From Dermatophagoides farinae (lineage: Eukaryota; Arthropoda; Arachnida; Sarcoptiformes; Pyroglyphidae): a DNA stretch of 64,000 nucleotides. The stretch spans positions 2,480,001-2,544,000 of the forward strand of contig NC_134678.1 in assembly GCF_024713945.1 (NCBI RefSeq). The letters are read 5' to 3'. Position numbers and translations under genes: made by a program. Of the stretch, positions 986 through 61,923 are shown piece after piece. Under the pieces are notes generated by a model, which worked only from the letters and a program-made list of their open reading frames with translations, was not told the DNA's origin and did not search any database. Every line of letters begins with the position of its first letter. The stretch's first letter is position 1.

Positions 986-1008
986 CCAACCAACCAACCA
1001 ACCAACCA
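986..1008. repeat. (CCAA)n microsatellite
   Basis: Nearly six tandem CCAA units are visible. It is a simple repeat with no gene context. Confidence 0.8.
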
Positions 1009-3456: not shown

Positions 3457-3490
3457 GTTGTTAGAAGAAGAATAGTCTTCTTCGAACAAC
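3457..3490. repeat. Tight inverted repeat (15-bp arms, 4-nt loop)
   Basis: The arm at 3457-3471 is the reverse complement of 3476-3490 with one mismatch, around the loop ATAG. It could form a compact hairpin or cruciform. No flanking target-site duplication or transposon ends were seen. Confidence 0.75.
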
Positions 3491-6400: not shown

Positions 6401-6583
6401 ATGCGTGGTTAGTTTCTATACTTTACTGTCGCGGTTATATATATCAAAATATTTCAAATGCGTCCAGTAAAAAAAAAATTTTTTTTCCTCAATATATTGT
6501 CCGTTGTCGATGAATGAATGAGTGGAAAAAAACGATCAAGTTGTCGTTGTCGTTGGTTTTTTCGATTCATTCGTCGATTGGTC

Positions 6584-6908
6584 GTCCATCAGTTCACAGT
6601 TCTCCGAATCTTTTTTCTTCAATTTCATTTCTTTGATTATTTTATTGGAAGAATTCAAAAAACTCTAATAAATCTTTACTGTTATTAGAGTTTGATATAA
6701 GCTTCCGATTTTTTTTTGTTATCAAAATTTGAAATTTCTTTTATTATTTGATCATCAATTCATATCTTTTTCGTTTGTTTTATTGTGTGTGTGTGTGTGT
6801 TTGCTTGCGAGTCTTTCAAATTAGATATATACTACACAGGTATATTCATCAATACTCTATTCTCATTTGATTGAAATTTACGTTTTCGAACAAAAAAATC
6901 AAAACAAA
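6584..6908 (+). promoter_or_regulatory. Candidate alpha-tubulin promoter and 5' UTR
   Basis: An arthropod-type initiator match TCAGTT sits at 6589-6594, after a CG-richer patch. A (TG)n tract lies at 6784-6800 and an AT-rich TATATA stretch near 6825, about 80 bp before the ATG at 6909. Either the initiator or the TATA-like stretch could define the start site. This is inference from motif and position only. Confidence 0.25.
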
Positions 6909-9954
<3,046 letters not shown>

Positions 9955-10116
9955 ACACATACATTTCTGATTATTTGAAATGATGATTAAAATTTATATA
10001 TCTTACCCCCGTCCAACCAGTATCACAATTTAATCAAAATTAAATCTAAAAAGCAATGATAAATTGATTTCAAGTGCAAATCTCAAAATTCAAAAAAAAA
10101 ACAAAATCCAAATTGA

Positions 10117-10122
10117 AATAAA
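10117..10122 (+). terminator. Candidate polyadenylation signal of alpha-tubulin
   Basis: AATAAA lies about 160 nt after the tubulin stop codon. AT-rich context makes chance matches common, so support is modest. Confidence 0.35.
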
Positions 10123-11588
10123 TAACCGAGATTTTACAGAACACAGATGATTTTTTTTCTTTGTTATTAATTAATTCAAAATAATAATTGGGTATAATAG
10201 AGAATTCAGAGAAAAAAAAATCAATGAATTTATCTGGATTGAATTTAAAATTCAACACCTAATGTGTGCTGCCATCCACCGATAAGAATATCAGAAGACG
10301 AAATATAGACGTTTTATTTTCAATCCATAGATGTCGACTGAATCGTTAGATTTTAAATATTTTCGCTCCAAATTTTGTCTCTCACCATTATTTTTTTTAA
10401 GGATCATTAAGAATATATTTTGTTAAACAATTAAGGAGAATGAAGAGAAAAAAAAACGGACGAAAAGATCATATGATCATCAAGGTCGAATGAATCGATC
10501 TATAGACGAATTGAAATGAATGTCATCAACATTTAACAAACTAATAATTACGAGATTCGGATTCTCATTTGTGATGGAGTTTTTTGGGTTGAATTATTAT
10601 TATTGTTTTTTGTTTACAATCGACTCACAACTCTTTTTTTTTTTTTTTGCTTATTATTTTACTATATATTGTGCATCATTCGAGATGAGATAGAGTAGGA
10701 TAATTGTGCATCCACATCGTGTAATGAAAATGTTGTTGTTGTTTATAGTATTTTAAAATGATTTATTGAATGACTATTTGAAGGGAAGATGAAGAAAAAA
10801 AACTCGAATTTACACCGGTATGTATGTGGACCACACTGATAATACATCCTCCCTTTTTTTTATCTTTCTTGTTCCTCACATTTTTTTTTATTTTTGATAA
10901 ATAAAAAAAAATCAACCAAAAAGAAAAAAACTCAAATTATGAAGAAATGTCCTGTCCACATCACATCATTGAATAGTTTTATATTTAACCACATTTACCA
11001 CTCATATACACATTTATTACACACACACACAATACAATAACAATACAATTCTATTATCATTTCGTAAATAAAAGATTTCTCTCTCATCATTTTTTTTTCG
11101 TTGTTCTTCTCGATTCATATCGACTCTTTTTTTTTGTTATTTCAGAAATTATCCATTTTATTGTGATGATGATGATGATGATGATCATACTCCCGCCGCC
11201 GCTGGGTGTATGTTCATCATCATCATCATCATCACAATAAAATACTGCTGCTGCTGCTGCTGCGGCTGATGATGATGATGATGGCGACAATTTGAATTTT
11301 CAAGAAAAAAAATCGATCTAACTCTTTATTGTTTAGTGATCGTTGATTTACTATTAGTTTTTTTATTACTAGTTTCTTTTTTCCTTGGACAATATTTTAA
11401 GTCAATGAAAAAAGAAAAAATTCTCTTTTTTTTGCAATTCGATTCAAATGATTTTTTTTTCTTTAGCTGGCCTACCAAATAAATTATATACCATTGTTGA
11501 TGAGATGATTTTCCATTGATGATGGTGATAATAATTATTTTCGAAATTGTCATGCGTACAAACGACAAGAAAAAAATATTTTGCCCAA

Positions 11589-11610
11589 CACACACACACA
11601 CACACACACA
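11589..11610. repeat. (CA)11 microsatellite
   Basis: Uninterrupted dinucleotide array. Confidence 0.9.
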
Positions 11611-12607
11611 TTCATTTATTGATATGGCATGTATCCAATACATCCAGAATTTTTTTTTTTCGTTTTATATTTTTCCATTCACAAACTTGCATTGTTGTTG
11701 TTGTTTGTGTTTCGTTGTTGCTACATTATATTTTTTTCCATATTCCAACCAGATGTATAGACACTTTTTTTTTGGTATATGCGTGATTGATAACTCGTCA
11801 ACTTCCTCACCCACCCTTCTTCACCACTGCTGCTGCCGTCGCCATCACTGATCATCATCATCATCATCAAGCCGATGAATGAAAAAATGAAATCAAACAT
11901 AAATCGAAAGGTTTCAGTCACAATGATCATCAAAAACCGAATTATGGATACTATATGCTATCATAATACGGTTACGCCTTAACGTTCGAATTGGTCAAAA
12001 CAGATAAATACAGATAATAATACAAACATTACACACAAAAGACAGTTTAGTTTTTCCAACATTTTTTTTTTACTCTAATAAAAAAGAGGAACAAGTTTTT
12101 TTTGCCCATTTCATTCTATTAACAAATTTTTCATTCATCTATGGCCACTTTTGTGATCATCAACATCATCACCATCACGATCAGGATTATGAGGAGGATG
12201 ATGAGGATAAGTGATGATGATGATACAAATTAGCTGAAATAAAATTCAATGCTACTACAACCAAACATAAACCAAACCAGCGTAACGAAATGAAACGAAA
12301 CCGAAAACTAACGAACAACAATTGTGAACAGAATGTAAAATAAAATAAAATAAAAAAAGAGATCCAACATTAATACACACAATCTTCTTAATAGAACTGC
12401 ATTATGCAGAAGCAACGAATGAAAAAAAAATGATCTCATCCTCTGAACACACACGATTGAACCAAGATCGACGACGACGACGATCAAGTTGAGATTCGCT
12501 TCCTTTCGCAAAAAATCATTTTCAATACACACACACACAATACACACATACATAAAAACGAAGGCAGACACGCTCACTTACTCACCTTCTTCAATCATTC
12601 AATTCAT

Positions 12608-12772
12608 TTCATTCATTCATTCATTCATTCATTCATTCATTCATTCATTACTAGGTGAAGGTCTTCGTCCTCGTTGATGGATTCTCTTCAATATTTGGTG
12701 ATATTTTACGGCGCCGCCGCATTATCAATGCATGAATGAATGAATGAATGAATGAATGGATGGATGGATGGA
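12608..12772. repeat. Facing TTCA and TGAA tetranucleotide arrays
   Basis: (TTCA)n spans 12608-12649. The complementary (ATGA)n spans 12732-12758 and grades into (TGGA)n to 12772. Since TGAA is the reverse complement of TTCA, the two arrays form an inverted repeat with a stem of up to about 27 bp and a loop of about 82 nt. Confidence 0.85.
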
Positions 12773-12988
12773 TCTGGTTGCTGTGTATTGATATGTCGCA
12801 TAAGATTGTCTTTATTTCTTATGTGGATGCAATATTGCATTTTTATGATCATAGAAACATTCTTGTTTATTTTCTTTGCTACTACAAATTATCCATATGT
12901 GAATGTATGTAATGGATACCGGTTTGTACTAGCAGTTGTTATCCATATCAATGCAATCTGTGTTTTTTTTTTTTTGGCCGACCGAGAG

Positions 12989-13023
12989 TATATAAAGACC
13001 ATCGTCATTGCACGATCCAGTAG
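12989..13023 (+). promoter_or_regulatory. Candidate TATA plus initiator core promoter
   Basis: TATATAAAG at 12989-12997 is followed by an initiator-like TCCAGTA whose A is at 13019, 30 nt downstream of the first T. That is the classic spacing for an RNA polymerase II start. No obvious coding sequence follows. It could drive a non-coding transcript or a distal 5' UTR exon of a plus-strand gene such as the kinase far downstream. Confidence 0.3.
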
Positions 13024-16000
13024 AGAGTCGATGTAATGTCTTTTTTTTTCGAAAGATTTCTCGTTGAACATCACTGGATGGATACAGACATTCATAATGA
13101 ATGATGGGGATGGGATAATGTGTTGAGGGTTTGGGTGATATAATCATTGGTAAACAAAAATGTTGGAATTTATTCAACCGACAATCATTATTATCATCAT
13201 CATCATCATTTTTGTTGTCGTCGTCGCCGTCGTCGTTGTCGTAGTAGTGCTAACTACAGAAAAAAATTGATCATTCGTCTGGGTTAGCATGAAAGTATTT
13301 TTCTTTTTCTTCTTGTTTGTTGTCCAGTTTCATCTTTTTTTTTAAAAAAAGTCAATGTACTATTGATAGTTTTGACATTGTCGATAAAAAGAACTCAAGC
13401 TGACCTTTTTTCCCTTGTAATCATCAGGCATCTGTGTGTCTTATTTCGATCATCTTTGTCATTCAATTTCATCTCACTAATTTATTATTGTTTAAATATT
13501 CAAGAATTTTTTTCAAAAAACAGCGCCATACTATTGCCGACTCATGCGTTGTTTGTAATATGAAAAAAGAGATGAAAAATTCTGAAAAAAAAACATTTTG
13601 AAACCAGCAAATCTTCTTACAACAACTTCAAGCTACAATTTCAATTGGTCCTGGCAATATATTGAATCCTTTTATTGTATGGATCGATCAAATTTGTTTG
13701 GTATTTACATAATATACTGACTACTGATGATGATGATAATAATTGGATTCTGTTATAAAAAAAAACTAGAATAGATATGACTGCTACTACAATGAATATA
13801 TCTTGAGCAGACAAACTTTAATAATTTTCCAAATCGATTCATTCATTTGGGTATAATAAATGAGATGGGATTCTTGCTTCTAGGGTTGTTTTTTTTTCAT
13901 TATCGTTTCGTATATTTTGAGTTTTTGTGGAGAAAAAAATTTTTCTCATTTTTTTCTTCGGAAATTTTTTTTTATTTTTTTATTTTTTCATTGTATTTAT
14001 CCATCATAGGCATCATCATTTCTTCGATTGAATGTAATATGTTCATGTTATTTTTTCCTGCGTAGTGGAAATCGAACAATCCAGAACAAAAACAACAACA
14101 GCAAAACAACAAAACAAAATCATCAACTTGATTCAATTGAATACAGAGTGATCACACGCATACACCTAAATACATTGGAGTTGTATGTGTTTGTTGTTTG
14201 CAGCAACGATTAATAGACAGTTTTTTTTTTAGTCGGGCGTTTTTTTTCCAAGCAAGTCATTGAATATATTCCATACTGGATTCCATAAACTTTCTGGCTC
14301 TTAGTAACAAAAAAAAACTACTTCCTATCTGATGGTGATAGATGGTGCTGTTCCAAATTCTACAATTTAATTATTTTCATTCGAAATTCTATAAGGTGGT
14401 TGTGTTTTTTTTTTGGTGTTTCATTATTCGAAAGTCCAAAAAAAGTAAAGATGTAAATTTTTATGTGAAAAAAAACAAAAGAAACAAAAATCATTACAAC
14501 ACACTAGAGAATTATGAGAATATGCATCGTATTAGATTTCTATTATTATTCAATGTTGGCAATTGAAATTGGAATTTTACAGTTATTTGCTACGAATGAC
14601 AAAAAAACAAGATGAAGAAGACAAAAACCAGAAAAACAATGTAGCCATTTTTTCGTAAATTCTCTTTTTTATTTTGTTGTATGTTTTCACCAGTTTTGTT
14701 GTTTCGTATGCATCATAATAATATCCCTCCCTCTAAAAAAAATTAATAATAATGAATTACGGATGTCGACATATATAATACAAAAAAAACGAACAAAATT
14801 TAATAGCCAGAATATGAATGAATGAATTCTATATGTTCTAGTTGTGCGCACGTTGGCGTATAAATCATTTTCCGGTTCTAATTTTTTTTTTGTTCCTTCA
14901 TTTATTTTTTATCCATTTTTTTTCCAAAATGATTTTGTATACACTACTTTCCTGCTTATTACCTCTTACTCCCACAATTGATTACACAACAAACAGAAAA
15001 AAAAACTTTATATCCAACAATTTTTTTTTCTTATATTCAAATACAAGACAAGAGAATTCCAAAAGAGTTTTACGCTGATGATGGCACATCTCATCGCACT
15101 GACACACACACACACAATTTCAAATGCCATCCCCATCAATATAAAAACAAAATTGCAGATAAACGAAGAGACGAACGAAAATTTAAATCAGAATCTCAAG
15201 TATCTATAGTTTTTAGCAATATAGAATTCTAGGAGAAAATATAAGAATTGAAAATTTAACAACCCACACACACACATATAGATAGTTATACATTTGGGAT
15301 TCTTCAACATTGACTAACATATTCACCTTCAATACATTAGTAGTAGAATTATCGGAATATCCATAGTATACAATAGGACAACATTCAACAACAACAACAA
15401 CAACCGCACAAAACTACGTGATGTATTTGGATTGGCTTCATTTTAACGTTACCTTCTTATTTTTCAAGAATTTTTCCAATTCTCAAAATTTTCTCTTTTT
15501 CTCTAGATGTTACATGTGCTTGTTAAACACATACAAACACATCACTGGTGTCATTCAATTGGTATTGTATTGTGTCATATATGTCTGTGATATCACACAT
15601 AATACAAATATTTTTCACATTCTATTCCATTTCATTTATATATCCAAAAGTTGAAATCTTTACAGTTTGGTTTCTTTTTTGTTCTTTTCTTTCGTTTCTG
15701 TTCTGTCCTTGCCCAGACACACACACACACACACACATACATAGTAGGTTCATTTCATTTTGTTAACAACACTTTTACTTTTCACACACAAACATAGAAT
15801 TTGAAAGGACAAAATAGAAAATTATAGTCAAACCAAGCCAAGAAAAAAAAATCTTCAAACAAGAATATATGGCGACTTATTCCTTGATGGAAGAATAACA
15901 CAGAAGAAAAAAAATCTGCTTCTTTCTTTCTCACTTTGTGTGTGTGTGTGTGTATGTTAAACATTTCATCTTGTTGTGTTTGGTTCACTCATATTTTTTC

Positions 16001-17148
16001 GTTTTCGTTTTCGTTGTTGTTGTTGTTATGCTAAACTCTATTCTTGCAAACTTATTCAATGCTTTGATCTATAGTTTTGAGTTTTAGTCAAGTATTTGAG
16101 AATTGAAGCCAAAAGAAAAAAAATGGCAAAAACTTCAGACCAAACAGAGCCCGATTTTTATATGATTCTGAACTCTAGCTAAAAAAAAATATGAACAGGA
16201 AAAAAGGGGCCAGCACAAAAGAACCAATAATGATAAAAATAAGGGAAAAATCTTCAGGGCCATTGATGCCTGCTTTTTTAAGGTCCAGAAGACCCACACC
16301 CAGACAACAGCAATATATAAGAAAAAAAAATTCTTCACTGTACATGTTGGATCCTAATATTCTTCACCATCATCTATCTATCTATGTGTACGTATTTGTG
16401 AAGAATCCAAAAAAAAGTTCTTTCTGTCTATCAACTGAAACTGTGTCTATGTGTGTGTGTGTGTGTTTATATTGAGTGAAATTGGAAATCAAGAAAAAAA
16501 GGAATAAAAGAGAAAAACGAAAATTCTATATCAAAATTCTTTGGTTCATCAAAATTGGCTTTTAAACATCAATATATCGCCATCTTGTAGTTCAAACGGA
16601 ATGAACAAATATACTGTTGTGTTATATGGATGTATACATTATGGAACAGGCCATCATTTTATTTTTTTCATGTTGATTTTTTTTTTTTTTTAGTTTTTCC
16701 TGTATTGATTACATCCCACCACCATCATTTAATAGCTACTACGTATGATTATTATTTTTATATAAAACAAAAGACAAAGATTGCAACGATAAACAAATAA
16801 AATAAAATAAAATAAAACAAACAAAAAAAACCGAAACAAATAATATAAGCCGATAGTCAGATTGATTGTAAATGAAATGATGATGATGATCAGATTCTGG
16901 CCACCGCCCGAAAAAAAAATCCAGCATTATACATCAGCACAGCACAACACAATACACAACACACAAACACATCATAAACAAAACCTCCTAAACAAGTCAA
17001 CGTCATTGTTTTGATTGCAATTTGCATTTCAATATTTTTTTTCAAGTTTTTGTTTCAAATATAATTGGTTTGTAATGGATTCATAAAACAAAAATTATAA
17101 CCAAGTCAGTATTATTGTCAACCTTAAAGGAATGATGACTTATGATAC

Positions 17149-45021: not shown

Positions 45022-47032
45022 TAATCCAGACATTACCACCTTTACACCTACAACGTTCTTAAATTTATTTGGATCCATAATCAAAATTGTGTGGCAAATT
45101 TTCACAAGAATGGACAAAAGAATTAAATGGTGATTACTGAACCCCCCACAGCAAAATTGGTCATTATTTCAGCTTAATTATATTCATCTTTAGTTTCAAT
45201 TCTTGACATCGGAATTTTTGCAAATCTGTTTTGTATGGTGGATGGATACATTAAACATTCGAATCGGAACCAAAAAAAAAACAAACAAACAAACATGAAA
45301 ACTAAATCTGTGATGTTAAACTCTTATTCACTTTCTCTCTTGCTTGATGTCGATTTATGATGTGAATTGTCCAATCCAAGGAAGATTTAACAGGAAAATC
45401 TATGGAACAACAAATCAATGTTTTTTGAGACATTTGAATTAATCTCTGATATATTCTGGAAAAAAAATTCATTCATTCAGTTTATTGTCATAGTTGTTTT
45501 TTTGATGAAAGGTTGTTGTACAAAATAGAGAAAGTGAGAAAGACAAGAAAAAAATTGATTACACTTATTACATCATCATTATCATCATTATCATCATCAT
45601 CATCATCAATGCACATAATTCTTTTCTTTCCTTCTTTTTTTTATATATATCCATAAGCAAAATGATGAAACCTTTGTTTATTTGTATTTATAAAATTATT
45701 AATATTATTGAATGGGATTAATTCATTTTCTTCTCTTCTCTAACACACACATACACACAAACATGGATAATGAAAAAAAATCTGTCAATTAAATTTGTAA
45801 TTTTGTGTAATTTTGAATTCATTATAACAGTTAAAAAAAATTGACACAAACACAAACACACACACACACATTGACAGAGATAATTTGGATTCTCTTTTTT
45901 TTGTCTACCTTTTTATTTTCAATGTATGATCATTTTGTTTGTAAAAGAAATTTCTTTTGTTTATTTCGAAAAAAAATTTAATGAACATTTAAAAATATAT
46001 GATCCAATCGAATCCAATCAATGCATATAAAATATCACATTACACATATACGTGGTAACATTTAACATGCATACAAATAAAATGGCCAATCAAAACCAAA
46101 TGGCAAAGAGAAAATGTTGCAAAATCTTCGATTCGAATTTCAATGATTCTGTACAAAAATATACATAGATTCGAAACTTTTTCCATCATTAAAATTCGAT
46201 TCAAATGATAAAAAAAAGATTATTATCCACATATATCAATTTTACAACTGAAAATGGAGGTTACACAGAATAACAGAACAATGATGATGATTTGAAATAA
46301 ATGAAATAATCCGTAATAATCGATCAATCAATCAGTGATTTTGTTTCATCAATTGATACAATTATATTCATAGGATTTTCTCCTTTTTAAATTTTTTTTT
46401 TGTTCAAAATGAAAACGCAAAAACTTTATCATTTAAATTTGAATTCAAAATTGTTAACCATTTTTTTCTGTTAATTCATCCTTTCTTTCGTCATTATTCA
46501 TCATTCAAAAAAAAGTCTTTCGTATTCATATTAATAATACTTTTCTCTTTTCTCAATTTGTATCACAAATGACCTTTTTTTCTCGACCCAATTCGCGGAT
46601 ATGATGTTGTGATCTAAATAAGTCTCTTTCTCTCTCTCTCTCTCATCATTCTTTTCATCTCTTGACTCGCTATCATTATTTGATTAGCCAACCATCACCA
46701 ACATTATAATATTATCGTAACCATTTTCAAATTGATGATGCATGATTTGTTAAATAAACTATTGTTTTATTTTGATACAAGATTTCAAATATTAATTTTT
46801 TTTTCGTTTTGATTAATAAAAAAAAATGATATGTTCATGATGGTGAAATGGCGGCCATTTTTTATTGACTATATAATTCTGTTTTGATTGATTAACTGGT
46901 TTGTTTCATATATTGTCCGTGTGGTCAGAAATGGACAATTTGTATCCATAGAAACGAACCGATTAGCTCAGCTAATTCTTGCTCATTCATGTAATACAAG
47001 AATGAGATCCATTTGTATATTTCATCATCATC
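45022..47032. other. Intergenic: kinase 3' UTR and upstream region of the Ly6-like gene
   Basis: AT-rich sequence with CAT triplets, CA arrays and poly-A/T tracts. No open frame with family resemblance. Several AATAAA-type signals could end the kinase transcript, but none can be singled out. Confidence 0.6.
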
Positions 47033-47557
47033 ATGAAGTTATCACTGTGGATTAGTTTGCTAATAATTTTCTTATTCATTGACAATTGGACTTTGGCTCA
47101 AAGACCTGGTCAACGTCGGAAACCCACACGTAAACAACCAAAAAATCGAGGACGTAATCGTGGACAAAAAAATGATGATCCTGGAATCTATTGTTATACT
47201 TGTTTTGCAGATTTTGAACGTGTTCCATTGACGGTATTCAATCCGGTCACTTATATTTACAATAATCCATGTTATAATCCAGCATTAAATTATACGCTTA
47301 CAGATAATGAGTATCTAACCAAATGTTCATCGACTACCAAATATTGTATGGTTGATGTAACACGATTGAATGGAGTACTCATTTCGGTCGATCGACGTTG
47401 TGGACAATCAACCTGTCGTAAAACTTGTCTTTCACGTGGATATGGTGTAATCCGTGAAACTTGTACATTTTGTTGCGGTGGTCGTATAAATGAAGATCAT
47501 CCGGATTATGATGAAGAAATAAATTCTGTTTATAAATGTCCTAGTGAACCACATTGA
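47033..47557 (+). CDS. Small secreted cysteine-rich protein, Ly6/uPAR-like
   Basis: Single-exon 174-aa protein. Residues 1-22 form a clear signal peptide (hydrophobic core, likely cut after TLA). A very basic spacer (24-46, rich in Arg, Lys, Gly and Pro) is followed by a cysteine domain with cysteines at 54, 57, 80, 98, 105, 123, 128, 132, 144, 147, 148 and 169. The opening CxxC and the late CC pair resemble Ly6/uPAR three-finger proteins, which act as extracellular ligands or channel and receptor modulators. There is one N-glycosylation motif (NYT at 86-88). It lacks the hydrophobic C-terminus expected for a GPI anchor, so it should be released. The family call rests on cysteine spacing only. 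It converges on the synthase gene, whose stop is 171 bp away. Confidence 0.65.
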   Translation: MKLSLWISLLIIFLFIDNWTLAQRPGQRRKPTRKQPKNRGRNRGQKNDDPGIYCYTCFADFERVPLTVFNPVTYIYNNPCYNPALNYTLTDNEYLTKCSSTTKYCMVDVTRLNGVLISVDRRCGQSTCRKTCLSRGYGVIRETCTFCCGGRINEDHPDYDEEINSVYKCPSEPH

Positions 47558-47728
47558 ATACAAATGAATTGAATTGTTTTAATTATTCTCTATTAAAAGT
47601 CTATCATATTACTAATACAATGAAAAATGTGTCGTGTGTTATTATTTTGAATTATGAAATTCTGTCAATGATTTTCTGATTGTTTCTTTATCAGCTATAG
47701 AAATAAAATAAATTTTTGTCAAATTAAA
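47558..47728. other. Shared 3' region of two convergent genes
   Basis: Only 171 bp separate the stops of the Ly6-like gene (+) and the synthase (-). An ATTAAA lies at about 47591 and AATAAA at about 47702 on the plus strand. If the second is used, the two transcripts overlap at their 3' ends. Confidence 0.4.
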
Positions 47729-50700
47729 TTAGCCATCATTACGCATACAATAATTGTTTTTACCTTTTCTATATTCTTTGATCATACCAACGGTTAATTT
47801 TTTAATTTCATCCGAAGTCAATACCACTTCATATTCTCGTTCGATACGTTGTTGCATTTCAACTGCCAATATAGATTCCATGCCCACATCACCCAATGAT
47901 AAATTATCTGGTAATGAATCCATATCGATACCGATTCCTTGCCAGATATGATCTTTAGCATTGGAATTATTACCTAAGATTGAAAAATCAGAAAAAGAGA
48001 TTAAACCAATAAACTATAGTGATGAAAATTTCACAAACCAGCTTGCTGTGTGGTTTCCAAACGAATGATAGAGGTAACAATAGGATAATCAAGAACTAAA
48101 AATCGATCCAATACTTCCATACAACTTGGAATGCGTTGTGTATCGATTACCATACCGATGCTGGTCAAATCTACATGTTCATTTTGAGCCCATAAGCCGA
48201 CATCGCCAATTGGACCATATGCGATAGCTTGTCCAGGTAATCCATCACGGCGACGTTTTTCACAAATATGTTCCATAACTGAATTAGCATAGCCATAATT
48301 GTTTTGTCCAAGAAAACCACGAGCCGAACTTTGTGATGAAAAGGCGACAAAATAATCAAGTTCTGGACACATTTTGCGCGTTACGACATCCAAATGACCA
48401 AGAGCATTCATTTTTGGAGCGCAAACTTTTTTAAATGAACCAGGAGTTTGATCTTCAATGAATGCATCACTTAAAACTGTTGCAAAATGAAATAAACCAC
48501 CGATGGGTCCAATTTTTTCCGAGTCCATTATTAATTGTTCCGCGCCTTTCATTGATGTTGGATCGGATGTTGAAATTTCTACTTTAACAGTTTCACAATT
48601 TTTAACAGCATTTTCGATTCGCTTCACAAAAACATATTGATATTCGTTTTTGATACCACTCCTTGAGACAAGAACCAACTTTCGGGCTCCTCTAATGGCC
48701 ATCCAATAGGCAACTTCCAATCCGAGGCCACCAAGACCACCGACAAGTACATAACATTTATTCGAATCAAACAGTGTTTTTGGTTTGGCTTGAATCTTGA
48801 ACGATGATGATGATGGTGTCACAATACTTACCTGATCACGAATACGAATCAGTACTTTTCCAATATTTTCTTCTCGATTCAAAACCTCAAATGCTTGATT
48901 GAATGAATCCTTATCAAATATAGTTTGTGGAATCGGATCAAAACATTCTAAAAAAAATTAGAAAATTAGCTTGAATCTAATCAAACATACAAATAATAAA
49001 TCACATACTTTTAACGTATTGGTCAAACCAGATTCTAAAATTCTTCATTAATCTAGGCATAAAGTTACGGAATGATTTTTCACATATGAGAGAAGATATG
49101 TTCAAATAATGTGCATTGCTTGATAATGGACTGTTAAAAGTGGATTTCGGTTGATCAATATCAATGTAACGTCCATAATCTCGAACGATGGGCGATAAGT
49201 TGTGTAATTTTTGGTTCGAAAATGAATTGAATACAACATCAACACCTGTGTAGGATGTGGCAACCAGAACCTGATCTATGAAATCGGAATCTTCAGGATT
49301 TAAAATATTTTTCTCGGGTATGTCGAAATTTTCCATTAAATATCGTCGTTTTCGTTCGGTGTTTGCCGTAGCGATAATAGTACAATCCATTTGATTGGCA
49401 ATTTGAAGAGTCGTTAGACCAATTGCGCTGGTACCCGGATGAATGAGAATCGTTTCGCCTAGAGTGAAAAAATATATCATAACGGTTAATTGATGTAAAT
49501 TAATTAATAACACTAATGAATAGTACCGGGTTGAAGATGAGCTTTATGAATCAAGCTACACCAAACAATGAATAAAGAATTAATTGAAGCAGCGCCATCT
49601 TCAAGTTTCCATTTGTCTGGAATTGGTATCAATAATTGAGGATCAATATCAATCGAAGTTGATATAGCTCGATGAAATGCTATTCCCATGACACATTCAC
49701 CTGTATCGGTTCGATAGCCAGAAAACTCTGTGCCTAATGATCGTTCTATGAATTCTATACCCATTGAACCAGAACTGAGAAGCGAATCTTTTAGATCTAA
49801 TCCAGCATAATGAATTTGAACGTTCACATCATTATGATTGATATGTTTGATCATAGGTGAAACAAGCCACTTTATGCTGGACATGTCTCCTTTTTTGACG
49901 ATATCCAAATAAACTTCATTACTTTCGACAGTATTATAATTACGTTCCAAATCTAATAATCGATAAGTACCCCATTGACCATCTTTGAATACATTCATAG
50001 ACAAATCTTTTTTCAAGATTTCATTATAAGGTGCTTGATTGAAATCGATTGGTTTTGGCAATTCTGTATCACTGTAAATGCAACGGAACCGATCACCTCC
50101 AGGCTCTTGACGAAGACAATTTGTCATACCAAGAATTCCGTTGAGAGTGCTATCATCTGAAACCATCCAGATATTTTCATTTTTAGGGCGATTCTTGTAC
50201 GAAGTGAATGAATTCTTTAATTTATCAACCCATTCATCAAAACGGACCAAAATAAACGGGCACGGTAATCTGTTTAGTTGGATCTAAGCTTTCAACTTGT
50301 TTGCGGAATAATAGACATGTTGATGTGATACAATCACTTTTCTTTGATATTAAATTAAAACCGGCTGCTTTGGCACCATTTTCAAATTGTTCAATTCTTT
50401 GGTTTAGATTAATAGTATTTATCGATTTTCCTGAAAAATCACCAATAGTTTTAAAAATGTTAATATTGATAAATTATGAATTCATACCGAAAAAATTGTG
50501 AACCATTTGTTCAGCCTTCGAAATATTTGAACGAAACACAGCAAACAAGAAACCATTTTCTTTAACACTAGATGAAATTTCTTTAGCGAAAATTTTAAAA
50601 TCAAGATTATCAAGATCAAAAGAATCTCTAAAAATAAATAGATCAGCTGGTGCTTCAATTGCTGGTAATTTTGATTCTTCTGCATTCCAATTAACGAGTT

Positions 50701-53700
50701 TATGAGCCGAATTTTGAATTTCGTCAGATAAATTGGAAATATTTTTTGCTAATAAAAGTGAATCTACAACAAGAGGATAATGAAAATGACCATTCATATG
50801 ACGCATCAAATCATCGATCAAAATCTGTTGATTATAATTAGCTTCAACCACTGTCAAATTGCGAAGACTGTTTTCATTGATGATATCTAGAAAATGATAA
50901 TGAAATCATTCAAAAAACTTTGTCATCTCGAAAAAGCCACATACCTAGTGATGATCTAATTAAGCGACCATTTTTATGACATGTATTGAGACAATCTTGT
51001 GAAAGATCATAGCCATTATCGGCAACAATTTTCTGCACAGTAGGCCAATTCAAAATTCCATCACCAATGATGTTGCCATTTTCATCGACGATGTATTTGA
51101 AACAGTCCACAAGAATATTGAGCAATACTTGTTCTGATGATAATTTTTGATTAAGAATGCGAGTCACATTTTTATTAATAAATTGTTGTGTTGATGATTT
51201 GTTTCCAGCCAAAACGATAGATAGAGCGATTGTGTTGCAATCTTCAATATATTGTTCAAGTTCATTATAGTCAACAATTTCGATTGCTTTTTGCTCATGA
51301 AACGGAATGAATTTATATTTTTCTAGTTTTACATTACGCATAACATTTTTCAATGGAATATGAACAAACTTCAATCCACGCATTTCGATACCACGACTGG
51401 CAACATATTTAAGATTAGCATCAATGATTACAGGTAAATCTTCTTGTGGTAAATCACAAAACCCTCTTGGATCACATTTAAATGATGGCAAAACAGAAGC
51501 TACATAAATAAACCGTTGATCAGTATGTGCGACACTAAGTTGAATCATTGATTCAACAAATGTGATAATATTATTCGACCATCGAACCATTGCACGGGAT
51601 CTATTAAAACTGGCGAATTCAATTTCCTGAATTTGTTTGAATTTGGGCCCATAATCATAACCTCGAACATTCATTTCGGTATAAAATTCATTAGTATTCA
51701 ACTTGTGTCCCGATCTAAACACAGAAAATAGATAAAAATAAATCAGTATAAATAATTCACTTACAGAGAAGAATTTTCTTTTTCAAAATTGTCAATTAAA
51801 TTCTGATATTGGAATTCAATCTGGTCGGGTCGACGAATTCTCCCTGAAGCGGCTATATTGTTTCCATCAAGTATGACGAATTCTCCAGTTGGATCCAAAA
51901 AACGAACTTTAAGTGCCATTTCATCTTCGGATAATGGAACTAATCGTTTGAATTCAACATTTTCGAATATTACTGGAAATGAGAACCAAGGTTGACCCAA
52001 AGATACTCCCAAACGTCGCCATGCCATTAGTAAATAACTGGTTGCTGGCAGAACACATTTTCCATCGAAGGCATGATCTTTCAAAAATTGATCATCCGGA
52101 TTTGATAATGAAAACTTTGAAACAAAGTCAGAAGCAGTTGCTTGAGAATGATATTCAGGATATTTTTTCACTAGGAATGATTTACTATGTTCCCAACGAA
52201 TCAATGAGCCAATCGATTGTGTATTTCGTGGAACAGGCCATTCGATTTGAGGGTACAATGCTTTGATTGTAAGATTCACACCGAATTGGTAGAGCTGACC
52301 AAGTGAATTGAAATAAAAATCAAGATTTCCTGCATTATTTCCACGTCTCATTAATCCAACATAATCGGAATTCGGCATGCTTCGTTTGAATATAGCAGAG
52401 AATAATGTATGCGCTGCAACTTCAATGATGATTGCATTCTTCGGAATATGTTTAGTAGCATCATGCAACAGGACTGGATTAATTAAATTATTTACAAAAT
52501 ATTCGGGTGAAGCTTTTCTAGCTTTATCTGAAGACCATTCATTTTCGGGTATAGAAGTTGAAATCCATTTTTCGCTTCGATATTTTGGTTCAGTAATGAT
52601 TTTTTTGAGAGCTTCCATCATTGGTTCGCCGGCTGGTGTCAAGAATGGTGAATGGAAAGGAATGTTGGAGCATTGAACTTCTTTGACAAAAATTTTCTCT
52701 CTGATCATAGCTTTAACACACGAATCAACAGCTTCATAACTTCCAGAAATAGTAACTGAATCTTCTGAATTATGGCAAGCAGCATAAACACCGGGTGGAC
52801 ATCTTTTAACTGTTTCTTCCCAAGTAAGTCCAACAGCGGCCATCATACCATGTTCAATATTAGAATCTTTAACAGCTTTACCACGCCAGAAAGATGTTAT
52901 GATTGCCTGTTCCAAAGTCAAACATCCATCAGCATATGCACAAGCAATTTCGCCGAATGAATGGCCCACTATGCAATCGGGTTGAACACCTAGGGCTTTG
53001 AATAAATCAACCAAAGCGATTTGTACTGATAAAATGGCCACAAAATTATGAACTTTATCTTCCATAGCTTTCGGATCTTCTGATAATAAAATGTAATTCA
53101 AATCAAGTTGAAATGGTTTTAGAATATCTGCACATTGCTTAATAGCAGCGGCGAATATATCAATGTTCATCATAGCTTTAGCCATACCAGACCATTGACT
53201 TCCCACACCGGGGAAGAAAAAACAAATTGGACGTTTGACGTTTTCAACTTTGGAAATTTTTCTGTTATATTGATATGAATCGGTAGAAGATTTTTTGATC
53301 AACATTGAACCTCGATAAGGAAAACCAGCTGAATAAATACTTGGTTCATAATTTACCGTTTCACCTAGAAGAGTAAGAAATTCTTGTGTAACACGATTCG
53401 GGTTGTTTTCGATGAAATCAAATATGTGATTAATTGCTTCTTCAGTACGCCCATTGATGTTGACGAGTCGAGGAACATTTCTAACAATCTGATAACTTTC
53501 TTCATTACATTCTTTCTTATTCGGTCTTGTTAAAGCATGAGCATTGACACCACCGATTCCAAATGAATTAATTCCCACAATTCCCGGCTCATAATCTCTA
53601 TTCGCAGTGACTGGATCAAGTGGTGGAACCATTACAGCTATGTCGGTCTTAATTTTTTTCAAGTTAAGATTGGCAGGAATTTTTTTGTTCTCATAAACAA

Positions 53701-54871
53701 TGCATAGTTTGGATAGTGATGCTACACCTGACGCACCTTCACCATGACCAATGTTGCTTTTTAGCAGACCAATCGGTAGTTTGCCTTTTCGATTTTTGCA
53801 ATATGCTTCCAAAATAGCTTTTGCTTCTTGTGGATCTCCAGCTTTTGTACCAGTACCATGACTTTCAAAATAATTTACTTCCAATGGATCGATACCAGCC
53901 TCAGAATAAGTAGCCACCATGAGATCATATTGGCTTTCAGTTGAAGGAAAAAACATTCCAGTAAGTTTATAGCCATCGATATTGGTTTTAGCATGAAGAA
54001 TTGTAGCATAAATTCGTTTGGAATCAGATTTTTTCTGTAGAAATAAACTGCACACAGTTTCACCACGAACATAACCATTCGCTTCTTGATCCCAAACTTT
54101 GGATCGACCATCAGGTGCAGCAATGTTATTAACTTTATAGATATGATTTGTAAATGGTTGAAGATTGATACTGACACCTGCCACAATTGCTTGATCACAT
54201 TTTCCTAATCGTAGATCTGTAACGGCAATGTCAAGACAAACCATTGATGATGCACAGGCGATATCGATTGACATTGAAGGGCCATGGAAATCATAAAGAA
54301 ATGAAACTCGATTCGCATAGAATGCTTTTGATCCACCTTGAAACCATAGTAGTGATTCTACTTTGGAAGCTTGGAATATCGTCTTGAACTTCTTGCGGTA
54401 CTCCATCTGGCATAGCGACTGATGTATATCCAACATAAACACCAGTGTTACTTCCTCTTAATGTTTGAGGATTAATTCCAGCATCGACGATTGCTTCCCA
54501 TGTTGTTTCCAGAAGAATTCTGCCTTGAGGATCTACTTCATCGGCCACTTTTGGTATGATGCCAAAAAATGAAGCATCAAACTTATCAATCTCTTTGAGT
54601 TTTCCCATTCGATTGGTGATTCCATAAAGATCTTTATAAGAAAAATAAAATAAATTTATTTATTGTAATTCATATATTTCTATAATAACTGACCTGTTGG
54701 CCAACGACGATCATCCGAAGTGATCATATCTACATTGTTGTACAAGTTATCACGAAATTCATCCAATGAATTCGATTCCGGATAACGACCACCAATTCCA
54801 CTGATAACGATCTCATCATCAATAACATTCCAAGGGAGCAGTTTTCTTACAGCCGTTTGATGATTTTCCAT
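47729..54871 (-). CDS. FASN-like: Type I fatty acid synthase-like, lacks thioesterase; two frame breaks
   Basis: Cytosolic multidomain synthase elongating acyl chains from malonyl-CoA. Exons (minus): 54871-54694, 54631-51765, 51714-50945, 50886-50488, 50430-49527, 49458-49009, 48947-48039, 47973-47729. KS has Cys185, His317 and His355; MAT has GHSFGE (Ser617); DH has HxxxGxxxxP (His912) but Glu1069 where animal FAS has the catalytic Asp; a pseudo-methyltransferase/KR part follows; the ER nucleotide loop reads GTSAIG (1714-1719), not GSGGVG; KR has GGLGGLG (about 1925) and Ser/Tyr; ACP has GMES (Ser2192). The protein stops about 47 residues later, so the usual C-terminal thioesterase is absent. 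Two +1 frame breaks (about 54375-54385 and 50240-50266) lie in conserved sequence; without them the length is 2239 aa. The gene may be a diverged paralogue, a decaying copy, or intact with assembly errors. Confidence 0.92.
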
Positions 54872-55494
54872 GATTTTGATATTTTTTTTCGAATGATGAT
54901 AAAATTTATAAATTCTTTAAAATCCACACAAGCGAATATTATAGTTCGCTATAAATTTTATAGTTTTACGTTTAGATTCAAAAAATTAATTTATCATCGG
55001 ATAGACGATGCACAACACCACTTGATGAGAGCATTTGTTTACAAAGAAAAAAATGAATTTTCTTATCCTGTTTAAAAAAAAACACACCAATATTTAAATC
55101 AATCAACGTCTTTTGTTCAAAAAAATTTTAACCACAAAAAAAATTATTTTTTCATCGATTGATACCCTGAACAATGAACAATTATTATTGTCTCGATTAT
55201 ATCTATAAAAATCTATATAAAAAAGTCTTTGAATTCTAAGAAATTTTTTTATTCACAAAAGTCCTAGATATTTCCTCGATGATGCGGTACTATTTTCTAC
55301 AATGTACTAATTTCTAAACAAATCAGATAGAATCTACCTTGAATTGTACGAATTGATTACAATTAAAATTAATAGAATTGTACAAGTAGGCCAATTTTTT
55401 TTTTGAACACAACAGAAATTGTATGAACTTGAAATAATTTATTATACTTTTTTCACACATTTTTTCAATAGTTTCTTTTGTTATTGATCTTAAA
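54872..55494. other. Intergenic: upstream region of the synthase gene, 3' region of the GMC gene
   Basis: AT-rich, no open frame of note. On the minus strand an AATAAA signal (55438-55443) lies about 52 nt after the GMC stop and probably ends that transcript. The remaining 550 bp or so should contain the synthase promoter. Confidence 0.5.
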
Positions 55495-57413
55495 TTATAT
55501 ACCATTATCCTGGCGTATCATGTCAAATCCATATTCAGAAAACATCATGATTGGTGCGTTTGTATTGCCATTGGTGATGTGTGGATAGATGGATCCATCT
55601 ATAACTCGAAGACGATTAACACCACGTACTCTTAATCTTGGATCAACAACTGAATCGGTTGTATTACCCATTTTACAAGTGCCAACTTGATGGCCAACAG
55701 TTGTTGTTATTGTTCTTGCATAACATTCTAGATATGATCTACATTTCCAGATTGGACCATTTGGACAAAGCTGACAACCAGGTATTGGTTGTCGATATAA
55801 TCGTACATATTGATTAAATGGTGGCATGCTTGCTAATTCCAAAGCTGTTGATATGACTTCAACCATTGAATTCACATCATATGGATCAGTCAAATAACGT
55901 GTATCAATCAATGGAAAATCATGTGGATCAGACGAGTTTAGATAAAGTCGACCAGTTGAACGTGGTCGATAATGAAAACATAGAATACCTAGACGATTTT
56001 TTTGGCCAACATGTGAACGATAATAGTTTCGCCATTGATCTCGATAAATTGGGCTATAACGTGCAACAATTTGTTCAAGATCATTGACCAATGGACTAAC
56101 GGTGAAATCAATTTGAAGATCAGGCCAATCAGTTTCATTATTCATACGACTATTAAAGTACATATATACTAATGGAAATTGAGACAATGGTCCAGCTGAA
56201 TCGACGAAATTATAGTACATGTTTTCAAGTGTCCATTCGATTCCCGAAGTAATCAATGATTCATTGAAAATTTCATAATCTAATTGAACAAAGATATGAT
56301 CCTTTAGATTATATCCAACGGGCAAATCGACTAAAGTTTCGATTCCAAATTCATTGAGATGATTGGATGGTCCAATTCCAGACAACATCAATAATTGAGG
56401 TGAATTTATTGAACCTAGAAAAAATAAATTAGCTTCGAATACTTTTGGATGATTTTAATTTACCTGCACTCAGTATGACTTCTCGCGAAGCATAAACTCT
56501 TTGCGTTTGATTTTCATGTTCATATTCAAGACCAATTGCTGTAATTCTGCCATCTTTGTCACGAGTTTCATTGAACAAAATTCTAGTAACGAATGCTTTT
56601 GTTAGGATTTGTAAATTCGGTCTTTCAACATTAGCTTCAAGATATGCACTAGCTGTTGTTGAACGAGTTGCATTTTCATATATGGTTTGTTGAAAATAAT
56701 TGATACCTAATTGTGTTGGTCCATTTTGATCAACTTCGGGAATTCCTCGTTTCATTAATTCTTCTTTGAAAATAGTGATAATCGGATCAGGATTTTTGGG
56801 TGTCATAACACTTACGGGGCCACTTGTGGAATGATAAGCGGAATTCATTGCAATAATTTTTTGATCAGTATTGTTTTCAGACCGAATAAAATATGGTAAT
56901 ACTTCTCGATAACTCCAACCAGTAGCACCGAATTCTTCAACCCAAGAATCATAATCTCTAGGACTTCCACGACTATAGACAAGATAATTGAGATTATGAG
57001 AACCACCAACGACTAGACCACGAGGATAATCCCACATGACCATCAAAAGCACGACCAGAATATGGAAGTTGAGATATAGTTGCATATCCCCAATCGACTT
57101 CAGTTCCAACTTCTTGCCGAGCCCAACTAGGCGTATCAGTTGCAATTGTTTGTGGTCCACCGGCTTCTAACACTAACACTTTGATATTAGGATTCTCTGT
57201 TAACCTTGCAGCAAGTATAGCACCCGCTGTTCCAGAACCGACAACAAGAAAATCATATTGATCAGCGATTGGTTGTTTAGTTGTGATTGAATTATGACGA
57301 ATTGTTCGCTGTAATATGATGACCGAAACTGTTAATAATTGTACAGTCAATGATGGTAATGTTGGCAATTGTGGCAATACAGGTTGCCTTGCAAATAAAA
57401 CTTGAGGCTCCAT
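55495..57413 (-). CDS. GMC-family FAD oxidoreductase (glucose dehydrogenase-like); one frame break
   Basis: Flavoenzyme oxidising an alcohol or sugar hydroxyl to a carbonyl. Exons (minus) are 57413-56464 and 56414-55495 with a 49-bp phase-1 intron. It has the FAD dinucleotide motif GSGTAG (59-64), the EAGG acidic end of that fold, the first GMC signature (PRGLVVGGSHNLNY), the second (GSINSPQLLMLSGIGP) spanning the intron, and a C-terminal active-site region with GHQVGTCKMG and GNTNAP. The N-terminus has a hydrophobic stretch (about 19-34) that could be a signal or anchor. A +1 frame break at about 57035 lies just before the first GMC signature; without it the length is 622 aa, typical of arthropod members. 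It follows the SDR gene by 203 bp on the same strand. The substrate cannot be told; insect relatives include glucose dehydrogenase and leaf-beetle salicyl alcohol oxidase. Confidence 0.93.
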
Positions 57414-57616
57414 GATTATTTTTGTGCATATAAAAAATAATTTTTCTGTTTTCCAAAAAATTTATATCCTTCGTAATGACCATATGATGTCAACCATCAT
57501 AAGTATTTGAATAATTAATAACCAGCTTGTTTACGATAATCAACTTGTATATTTATTAATTTATTTTGAAAAAGTGATCAAAACATGTCAAATCGAAAAA
57601 AATTGTATTTCAAATG

Positions 57617-58773
57617 TTAAACGTAAACAGAGCCCCCATCAACAACCAATGAATGTCCGGTAACAAATGATGATTCTGAAGAAGTCAAATATGCAATAGC
57701 ATTGACAATATCTTCGGTTGTTCCAATTCGTCTCAATGGATTGGTTTGTTCCAGATGTTTAAGTACGCCATCAAGAATTTCTCCAGCACCAGTTGCAGCT
57801 TGAAAATTGGTGCGTACAGCAGTCGGACTAATTTTTTTTTATATAAATGTGGGTAATTTTAATAAGATGTGTAATCAGAATTCCTATACTTACTTGACGG
57901 TATTGACACGAATGCCTTTTGGTCCAAGTTCCATGGCAATACATTTGGTAAACATGTCGACAGCCGATTTGGCCACACAATATGGCATGAAATGTACATT
58001 CTTAAAAAAAATTCCCGTAAAATTAACATATTTATTGAATATTATCATGATTACATACCGGTTTGAATGATAATGTACTCGAAATATTCACTATGACACC
58101 ATTTGTCTTTTCCAGATGTGGTACAGCCATCTGAGTAACCATGGCAATTGATTTAACATTCAAATTGATCATATGTTCCAATGTTTCCAAAAGTTTTGGA
58201 TCATAAATAGAGCCAAAAGCTCCAGCACCTGCATTATTGATAAGGATGTCCAATTTTCCGAATTGATCGATAGTGGTGGCAATCAAGCGTTTACAATCAT
58301 CTTCTTTGGTGACATCAGCTTTCATCTGTAAGGCCCGATATTCTGGAATTACAATAATAATGAAATTATTTTGATAATAATTTTTTTTTCAAACAAAAAC
58401 ATAACTTACTTTTAGGTGAAATACATTGACATTCTTCTGCAGCTTTTGCAATAGCCACAGGATTACGTCCATTGATGACCACTTTGGCACCACAACGTGC
58501 AAAATATTTTGCTGTAGCCAAACCAATACCACCGCTGGAACCGGTTATCAGTACAACTTTTTCGCTAAAATCTCGATTACGATTAGACATTTTTTCAGTT
58601 GTAACTTGCATCAACGGTAAAGATGAATGATTACCGGATATTTCCTGTGAATTTTCAATATTATGATTAGCCGAAAGATTGGTTTTGTCACTACCACTAT
58701 TTGGTGAATCAATTTTGACCGATCGATGTGAACCACAAGACAATTGTGAGAATAATGATTTCACACTTCGCAT
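57617..58773 (-). CDS. Short-chain dehydrogenase/reductase with N-terminal extension
   Basis: NAD(P)-dependent oxidoreductase of the classical SDR family. Exons (minus) are 58773-58410, 58342-58059, 58000-57894 and 57827-57617, giving 321 aa in frame. It shows the cofactor loop TGSSGGIG, NNAG, the catalytic serine in NISS, and YCVAK (YxxxK). The first 61 residues precede the usual SDR start; their beginning is basic and serine-rich without acids until residue 22, suggesting a mitochondrial presequence. A second in-frame ATG at residue 62 would give a standard 260-aa cytosolic enzyme. AATAAA signals on the minus strand lie about 50-65 nt after the stop. The last two exons (107 and 211 nt) match those of the plus-strand SDR at 61015 in length and phase, so the two are paralogues. 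The substrate is unknown; FabG-like or carbonyl reductase activity is the general expectation. Confidence 0.93.
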
Positions 58774-61014
58774 CTTGAATGTAATATATTTATTTGAATT
58801 AAGGTAAAAATAAATAAATTGTCGACAATAATTGATTCAAAATTCAGATAACTTTGTTCAATGTTGAAACAATAAGAATTGTTGCAATATTTTCCATTTT
58901 CATTAGTGGTAATCATTCAAACACTTGCACATTTATATCTTAACTTGATCATCAGTTGAATAAATGGGAAAAAAATCGAATAAATGTAGAAAAAGTGTAA
59001 TATATAAAATAATCGATAATAATGAGACATAAAGAAAGAAAGGACTGTTGACGACGGAAAAAAAATGTTAATCGACTAATTTGGAGAATTTTTAGCATTG
59101 AATCTTGTTTTTTCATTGAATAAATAAAATGCGTTTAGGTTATGATCGATATCTATGTTTGTGTATGTGTATATGAGTCATATTTTTCCCTCTCAATTAT
59201 ATATGAAAACAAAACAAAACAAAACAAATCATTCATAATGAAATTAAAAGTTTGTAATTGTAGGTTTTTTTTTACCTTTATTGACAATTTTGAAAATGAA
59301 TAAATGAATCCTTTCAATATAAAATCACATCCGCTATAGAATAGTGTGTGTTCCATAACAACCAACAAATGTTTTGAATCAAAAACTATCGGTTGTCAAA
59401 CAAAAGTAGAGAAAAAACAATATATAGCTAGTGATGATGGTAAGCTACCTTGATTTGGAAATAATATTTATTTTTATCTAATATCGCCATCTTGTTGAAA
59501 AAATGATGAAAAAATTGTTTAAATTTAAAGATCATCGATTCAAGAATATCCTAATAATATAAAATTAAAAGTCCTAGTTGGTTATACCGTATGAAGATGG
59601 CGCCCATTTGTTATTTGTGGCCGAAATGCAAAACAAATCGAACAAAAATTAAAGTCCAACTATATGTTTATGAAAAAGTGTGTACAATTATGAAAAACCA
59701 ATTTCAATAAATGAATTGAAATTTTTTTTTTTATCATCATCAGCAAGCTCCAATGATGATAATTAGAATGAATGAAAACATGTTCAAACAAGGTCACCAA
59801 CTTTTCTTTTCTTTCATTTTGCTCAAATCTTTTTGCTATTCTTGCCATATTCTACCTTTACATTTCTGGTGATCATTTTTTCGTCTGATTATTAGCTGCT
59901 GGTTGTTGTTGTTGTTGTTGTTGCTATACACGATATATCATCCCGTAAGAAAAAAAATACAAGAATATATTTTGCATTTCATAGAATGGTAAACATATAA
60001 TTATAGGTTTATTTATTTTTTTTGTTGAAAAAATTACGAAATATTGTTTATATCAAACCATATAGAAGAACAGCAGCTGCATTGATGAATCTAACAAAAA
60101 AGAACAACAATAAAATCTTCATCAATCAACACGAATAATGTATGTATGTATGTATGATTCCATCCATTCTTCATGTTGCTATGACGTTTTTTTTCAATAC
60201 TACTACATCCTCGTTTGATCGATTCATTCGGTGGAAACAACGATAATGATTTCTAACTCATTCAAAAAAAAAAACGCATTCATAGTCAATTGAATGAGTG
60301 TGTGTATCATTTTTCAATAACATATCCATTGGCGGTTTTGATGATCAAACAACAAAGAATATAGCCTGAAGTGGGAAATATATACTTCAAAATAAAAAGA
60401 TATTTTCTATTGACAACCATTTCTGGTTAGATGGTTGACAATTTATATTTACTGCTATATGCTACTATATTCAATTGTTCTTCGTCGTCGTTGTTACCAA
60501 CTATAGATTTTTTATTTTATTTTATTTTTTTCTACCCATACATTTGTCAACACTTACATGAAAGCACAAACACACGAATCATCATCATTTGATAAATTAT
60601 TTTTTTTTTGATAATTAATTGAAGATTCATTTGCATTTTGCATCACCAAAACAACTGCATTGATCGGTATGTTTGTTATCATATCAAATTTTTTCTGCCC
60701 ATCATGACCTTGTTTTGATTTTGTTAATATTAATTCTGGATAATCATTCATTTGAGACATTAAAAAAAAAATTTAGCTGCCGTTATTTGATGCTTCTGCT
60801 GCTAGTTTAAAATTAACCATCCGTTATAGCCTTCAACAAAAAAAAATGTACATAACACAAACAAAGCCATGTCTTTCATACACAGATTTACACATCAATT
60901 CTTTCAGATTATTTTCTGATTCGCTTAAACATTTCATTCTGAGCTGTTGTTATATCACTTCATAATCAAAATAATCAATTTTTTATCTGTTTATTTTCCC
61001 TCAACAGAAAAAAA
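58774..61014. other. Shared region between two divergent SDR genes
   Basis: These 2.2 kb separate the starts of two oppositely oriented SDR paralogues and should contain both promoters. The sequence is AT-rich with GTT and ATGT arrays and poly-A/T tracts. A pyrimidine-rich tract ending in CAACAG at 61002-61007, seven bases before the plus-strand ATG, looks like a 3' splice site, so the plus gene probably has a spliced 5' UTR exon here. No other coding sequence was recognised. Confidence 0.5.
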
Positions 61015-61923
61015 ATGGCAACAGAATTCAATTTCATCAATAAAGTTGTCCTTATCACTGGCTCATCCGGAGGTCTTGGCTCAGTTCTAGCTCGTGAATT
61101 CGCTAAACGTGGTGCTAATTTGGTCATAACTGGGCGTCGACAGGATGCTGTTGATAAAGTTGTTAGTGAATGTTCGTCATTGTCACCTAATGGCGCTGAA
61201 CATTTCTCACATTTAGCTGATGTAACTAAAAAAGAGGATCTAAAATGTTTGGTAGATTCGGCTATTCAAAAATTTGGTCGCCTTGATGTACTCGTCAACA
61301 ATGCTGGCGGTGGAGCTTTTGGCTCTATCTATGATGAAAAATTACAGGATCAACTGAATTCTATGATGAATTTAAATCTAAATTCGGTTGTTGCATTGAC
61401 ACAATTAGCTGTTCCTCATCTTGAAAAGGTCAAAGGAGCTATTGTCAATATTTCTTCTATTCTTGGACAACGACCGGTAATGAATATAATATATATCTAC
61501 CGAAATATGCTAATTTTATAATCTTGAAATTTTCTATAGAATCAATATTTCATGCCATATTGTGTGGCTAAAGCTGCTGTTGATATGTTTTCTAAATCAA
61601 TTGCCATCGAGCTTGGACCAAAGGGTGTACGCGTAAATTGTGTTAGGTATGATACAAATAAAAAATAACTTATCAATTAATCAACTAATTAAAAAATTAT
61701 CTTAATTCACAGTCCAACTGCGATACGTACTAATTTTCAACAAGCAAGTGGTGCTGGTGAAGCATTGGAAGGTGTACTGAAACATTTGGAAGAAACAATT
61801 CCATTACGTCGTATTGCCACTGTTGAAGATGTGACAAACGCTGTATTGTTTTTGGCTTCCGATAAAAGTTCGTTCATTACTGGATCAAACATTGTTGTTG
61901 ATGGTGGTAATAGTCTTATCTGA
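61015..61923 (+). CDS. Short-chain dehydrogenase/reductase
   Basis: Classical NAD(P)-dependent SDR of 259 aa, the standard length. Exons are 61015-61476, 61540-61646 and 61713-61923, with introns of 63 and 66 bp. Motifs are TGSSGGLG near the N-terminus, NNAG, the catalytic serine in NISS, YCVAK, and the family's C-terminal VDGG. It is closely similar to the minus-strand SDR at 57617-58773, including segments such as GAFGSIYD and the PTAIRTNFQ region, and shares the positions and phases of the last two introns. It has neither the N-terminal extension nor the extra intron of the other copy. AATAAA at 61963-61968 is a good polyadenylation signal 40 nt after the stop. It probably acts as a cytosolic carbonyl or ketoacyl reductase; the substrate is unknown. 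Confidence 0.94.

Follow-up and report, generated by a model that had tools for sequence, protein, structure and literature searches.

The window, i.e., the whole stretch of 64,000 nucleotides that was analysed, comprises positions 2,480,001-2,544,000 of contig C2 in a mite genome of 62.4 Mb and 22 contigs. Genes of the group-2 and group-5 mite allergen families are present in this genome, which fits an astigmatid mite; the group-2 protein scores about 109 bits against Der p 2 / Der f 2 and was judged by eye to share roughly half of its residues with them. The minus strand of the window carries three genes arranged in tandem and in the same orientation, namely SDR1, a GMC oxidoreductase gene and a gene for a FAS-like synthase, with gaps of 203 and 623 bp between them; a further SDR gene (SDR2) begins 2.2 kb past SDR1, on the opposite strand and facing away (Table 1). 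Open frames and GT-AG splice sites served as the basis of the gene models, and Pfam was run on the exons of the synthase, GMC and SDR2 genes. An earlier note on this DNA had described the same tandem order and the same gaps, and frames, splice sites and Pfam agree with that description. The note had also held the outward-facing SDR to be a paralogue of the other, and SDR2 is indeed 60% identical to SDR1 over 251 residues. The enzyme families that it had named are confirmed by Pfam for the synthase, the GMC protein and SDR2, and for SDR1 by its identity to SDR2. The boundary of the synthase gene, which had been placed at 47729, is corrected here to 47642, because a short last exon comes after the ACP.

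The small cysteine-rich protein encoded next to the synthase matched no family in a Pfam search, and the left flank also has a protein kinase. The right flank contains a gene with the N-terminal domain of acylamino-acid-releasing enzymes (23.4 bits against a cut-off of 23.1) and, further on, a peptidase S9 domain and a carboxylesterase.

Table 1. Features of the locus (positions within the window)
Feature	Position	Strand	Details and basis
FAS-like synthase	54871-47642	-	9 exons, 6,740 coding bases; open reading frames, GT-AG junctions, Pfam
Synthase exons 1-5	54871-54694, 54631-51765, 51714-50945, 50886-50488, 50430-49527	-	
Synthase exons 6-9	49458-49009, 48947-48039, 47973-47764, 47694-47642	-	
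KS, MAT and first part of DH	51765-54871	-	Pfam; aligned with mammalian FAS (human, pig), EcPKS2 and the paralogues of the mite
Degenerate enoylreductase region (approximate ends)	49009-49870	-	51 of 112 positions kept
Ketoreductase exon	48039-48947	-	Pfam KR, 141 bits; alignment
ACP and C-terminal end	47642-47973	-	Pfam PP-binding, 30.4 bits; alignment
GMC oxidoreductase	57413-55495	-	Exons 57413-56464, 56414-55495; Pfam
SDR1	58773-57617	-	4 exons (58773-58410, 58342-58059, 58000-57894, 57827-57617), 321 aa; splice model
SDR2	61015-61923	+	3 exons (61015-61476, 61540-61646, 61713-61923), 259 aa; splice model, Pfam
Cysteine-rich small protein, secreted-looking, convergent with the synthase	about 47006-47557	+	

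A KS search of the large contigs, the counts of which are lower bounds, found at least five FAS-like genes, i.e., those on C7, C9, C5 and C3 and that of the window, and listed besides these one separate single-KS gene (C7:125683). The FAS gene on C7 is canonical, with a thioesterase (TE) and an open frame of 2,474 codons. Over KS-MAT, the window protein is 46% identical to the paralogue on C7, 49% to that on C5, 51% to that on C9 and 38% to that on C3; the corresponding values are 39 and 42% for human and pig FAS and 39% for EcPKS2. In a tree of this region the C5 and C9 genes are joined with a support of 100, and the window gene joins this pair with a support of 98. The tree, which is small, contains one animal FAS-like polyketide synthase (AFPK) and has its C19 outgroup placed with a support of 24-43, sets the window gene with the mite paralogues and not with EcPKS2. 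Membership of a molluscan AFPK clade is without support in this small tree with its weakly placed outgroup. Against KS-MAT, mammalian FAS scored slightly higher (669-674 bits) than EcPKS1/2 (633 bits).

On the exons of the synthase, Pfam recognised KS, AT, DH, FAS_pseudo-KR, ADH_zinc_N, KR and PP-binding. Alignment revealed that the Cys-His-His of the KS, the Ser/Arg/His of the MAT, the Lys/Ser/Tyr/Asn of the KR and the Ser of the ACP have all been kept, and these are the residues that we take to be the catalytic ones. The DH has kept HxxxGxxxxP and has a Glu at the site that is Asp in the C7, C9 and C3 proteins; because of this substitution, dehydration is uncertain.

Decay of the synthase is seen mainly in the enoylreductase (ER). 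Taking as reference the positions that are identical in the four other mite FAS proteins, the window protein keeps 72 of 84 in the KS, 76 of 87 in the MAT, 36 of 43 in the N-terminal half of the DH, 32 of 36 in psiME/psiKR, 64 of 76 in the KR and 8 of 11 in the ACP, but 51 of 112 in the ER. The C-terminal half of the DH (14 of 21 kept) was scored against three references, because the C5 protein was cut short there. When the ER is set against the KS, MAT, N-terminal half of the DH, KR and ACP together (256 of 301), Fisher's test gives p = 4e-15, a value to be read in the knowledge that the five proteins are paralogues from a single genome, so that neither positions nor sequences are independent. 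In a leave-one-out count of the ER, the four paralogues keep 51/53, 51/54, 51/53 and 51/57, respectively. The nucleotide-binding GGVG/GAVG of the paralogues has become SAIG in the window protein, and further conserved blocks of the ER are altered. The Pfam score was of no use as a gauge of this decay, as ADH_zinc_N did not discriminate between the window gene (35.7 bits) and its paralogues (37.9 bits for C9 and 39.5 for C3, both partial; 57.0 and 49.4 for the other two). Since the fold is still matched by Pfam, calling this ER inactive rests on the lost residues and not on the fold. Despite their divergence the ER exons still have open frames, as would be expected if the whole protein had long been in use.

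The window gene is also the only one of the five FAS-like genes found from which the TE region is absent. The alignment stops after the ACP, and the protein itself ends about 19 residues past the last of the ACP blocks. The convergent neighbour has its stop codon 84 bp from the end of the synthase, which leaves no space for a TE. The thioesterase family was matched in the C7, C9 and C3 genes, and the C5 gene is alignable across the TE region (~834,280-835,380, minus strand); the nucleophile motif is altered there, and Pfam did not recognise the region.

The GMC protein next to the synthase matches Pfam GMC_oxred_N and GMC_oxred_C and has kept both PS00624 and the catalytic-type His. It departs from PS00623 at two positions; the exact pattern is present in only two of the eight GMC loci scanned, which makes PS00623 a weak criterion here (patterns as printed in the excerpt of PMC12198266). 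Seven other GMC loci are 34-49% identical, by match, to the larger piece of the window protein, the solved relatives of which include choline oxidases (the best), aryl-alcohol oxidases and patulin synthase. The models of SDR1 and SDR2 both have TGxxxGxG and YxxxK motifs, and adh_short was matched on SDR2 with 123.8 bits. Elsewhere in the genome, the gene closest to SDR2 is at C8:756799-757695 on the plus strand, with 63, 84 and 82% identity by exon, whereas SDR1 reaches only 50-73% by exon. The best solved relatives of SDR2 are 1xkq, 1spx and 1xhl (short-chain reductase family), DHRS4 and 7-alpha-hydroxysteroid dehydrogenases, the first three of which are presumably nematode proteins. Judged from sequence, the solved relatives of the GMC protein and of SDR2 fix no substrate for either enzyme.

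How unusual is this grouping of genes? With 12 GMC genes (derived from 19 matches), about 40 related SDR loci (derived from 55 matches), 5 FAS-like genes and an assumed total of 10,000-15,000 genes, the chance of a FAS gene adjoining a GMC gene anywhere in the genome is about 1%, and that of having an SDR gene at one end as well is about 4e-5 to 1e-4. As the combination was picked after being seen, the grouping is only mildly unusual. The other four FAS genes have no comparable neighbours, as a search of approximately 30 kb around each yielded neither an SDR nor a GMC match at E 1e-3.

The reading that we favour, and hold tentatively, is that an animal FAS was duplicated and that the copy, the synthase of the window, may have been turned into a partially reducing, TE-less enzyme of polyketide type. 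It is based on the sites kept in the KS, MAT, KR and ACP, on the lost ER residues and on the absent TE, and is favoured by the adjoining GMC gene with its catalytic-type His, by the intact look of the SDR motifs and by the other four FAS loci having no such neighbours. It is weakened by three frame breaks in two of the genes, by the ADH_zinc_N fold that Pfam still sees in the ER, by the Glu of the DH, by SDR2 being nearer to the C8 gene than to SDR1, and by KS-MAT scoring slightly higher with mammalian FAS than with EcPKS1/2. Such a synthase would condense malonyl units, reduce ketones to alcohols and perhaps dehydrate some of them, and would itself be unable to saturate the chain. The product would be short and oxygenated or unsaturated, and could be released without a TE of the enzyme's own, either by spontaneous ring closure or by a separate hydrolase or reductase. 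The GMC oxidase and the SDRs next door might then interconvert alcohol and carbonyl groups of this product. No match to the acyl-reductase family (PF07993) was obtained on contig C2, so that reductive release finds no enzyme of that family there, and the same search gave no candidate at the locus for turning a thioester or acid into an alcohol or aldehyde. In one study, FAS is said to have been switched between reducing and non-reducing mode. A 6-methylsalicylate-type aromatic would be the boldest version of the partially reducing reading and is not its default.

The frame breaks mentioned above, which do not figure in the earlier note, are of a single base each and are located near 54,345 and 50,246 in the synthase gene and near 57,036 in the GMC gene, whereas both SDR genes are unbroken. 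Possibly, the locus is recently dying, the synthase and GMC genes being pseudogenes and the decay of the ER part of the same process. Two breaks in one gene and one in its neighbour are what such a process would leave. However, the FAS gene on C3 contains a frame break as well, and so does a chaperonin (CCT) gene (C8:1487654-1488956), where the sequence itself was checked; HSP70 genes on C9 and C4 are apparently broken too, as judged by match coordinates only; breaks in conserved genes elsewhere make assembly error a plausible cause of those at the locus. This defence is itself weakened, as the FAS genes on C7, C9 and C5 showed no abutting frame changes, and neither did the window's alpha-tubulin gene (identified by eye). 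Against a dying locus stand both SDR genes being unbroken, and decay that is concentrated in one domain, with about 85% of the invariant positions kept across the other domains counted. On balance, we consider it unlikely that the locus is dying.

Two further explanations leave the synthase functional. It may be an ordinary lineage-specific FAS paralogue that makes lipids for the cuticle or for storage and leaves release and enoyl reduction to other proteins, the proximity of GMC and SDR genes being coincidental in a compact genome. The clear FAS descent and the grouping with two mite paralogues (support 98-100) are in keeping with this, as are the large GMC and SDR families of the genome and the shaping of locust hydrocarbons by FAS paralogues (PMC10764717, in the part available); however, the joint loss of the TE and of ER conservation is seen in none of the other four genes, and we regard this explanation as possible but somewhat unlikely. 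A very improbable explanation, modelled on the synthesis of lovastatin in fungi, is that a second reductase stands in for the ER in trans and that the product is still largely saturated. In the lovastatin system, LovB and LovC are partners, the reductase acting in trans. The solved relatives of KS-MAT do include LovB, but it is a distant one (267 bits versus 674 for pig FAS), and a non-exhaustive survey of the open reading frame list showed no gene for a separate medium-chain reductase next to the locus. The earlier note had proposed a special chemistry for this locus, and this idea gains support, as the window synthase, unlike the other four FAS-like genes found, lacks a TE and has a degenerate ER. 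The locus, where a FAS paralogue has apparently lost two functions and is closely flanked by genes for redox enzymes, is of greater interest than a mere copy of FAS, but it falls short of a proven cluster.

With animal type I FAS (human and pig FAS, and the C7 protein of the mite), the window synthase has in common its descent and the order KS-MAT-DH-psiME/psiKR-ER-KR-ACP; it differs by the absent TE, the degenerate ER and the change from Asp to Glu in the DH. Like AFPKs such as EcPKS1/2, it is derived from FAS. According to the excerpt of PMC10764717, a TE is present in all animal FAS and in arthropod AFPKs (with a few exceptions that have other end domains), whereas the molluscan AFPK clades 1-3 have none, and TE-less FAS-like synthases producing polyketides are known in molluscs; the absence of the TE from the window synthase thus resembles the molluscan clades and differs from what is reported for arthropods. 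Fungal 6-methylsalicylic acid synthase (6-MSAS) has a working set of KS, AT, DH/TH, KR and ACP, without ER or TE (PMC4797705, in part), and the working domain set of the window synthase matches it, in architecture only and with the ER judged by its lost residues; it differs from 6-MSAS in that the decayed ER region is still present. Descent from a fungal or bacterial 6-MSAS is not borne out, as the best relatives are mite and mammalian FAS. The GMC protein shares its superfamily, the catalytic-type His and PS00624 with the salicyl alcohol oxidase of leaf beetles and other aryl-alcohol oxidases, the beetle enzyme being likened by family only, and differs from them in having choline oxidases as its best solved matches and in its two departures from PS00623. 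As in the oroidin gene bundle of sponges, genes of primary metabolism are gathered in one region; that bundle is conserved across species and has been biochemically tested (PMC12833800, in part), whereas the mite locus is known from the sequence of one genome.

A modular polyketide synthase (PKS) was found on contig C19 (282,697 bp), where an open frame of 5,507 codons at 3-16523 on the minus strand encodes three KS domains and adjoins genes for an ATP synthase/V-ATPase subunit c and a LUC7-like protein. There are further long, mostly unbroken CCT matches on C14, C16, C17, C20 and C21, and three long HSP70 matches on C15. As these small contigs carry extra CCT and HSP70 matches, a second, apicomplexan-like eukaryote may be present in the assembly. 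A bacterial-type PKS of the mite is not what this frame offers, as the only modular PKS found sits on a contig that seemingly comes from another eukaryote.

2-Hydroxy-6-methylbenzaldehyde is the aldehyde corresponding to 6-methylsalicylate. According to the excerpt of PMC7542773, labelling has shown that simple aromatics are produced de novo in an oribatid mite through a polyketide-like route, this aldehyde being made from malonate and acetate; a bacterial-type PKS has been proposed for that mite, and the synthase is described there as not established. The window locus can be tied to this aldehyde by analogy. By the same analogy, the locus could be an arthropod polyketide cluster of animal origin, in which a FAS paralogue without ER and TE would make a 6-methylsalicylate-type tetraketide, and the GMC and SDR enzymes would convert it for secretion as an aldehyde, e.g., 2-hydroxy-6-methylbenzaldehyde, with no bacterial-type PKS involved; we think this rather improbable. 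No description of this gene set in a mite was found in the literature covered, which lay mostly outside the subscription journals. The locus is thus best described as a candidate for polyketide synthesis in an arthropod, and not as a demonstrated gene cluster. If the partially reducing reading is true, the loss of the last reducing step and of the release domain from a FAS paralogue would offer a simple, home-grown way of getting from fat synthesis to polyketides.
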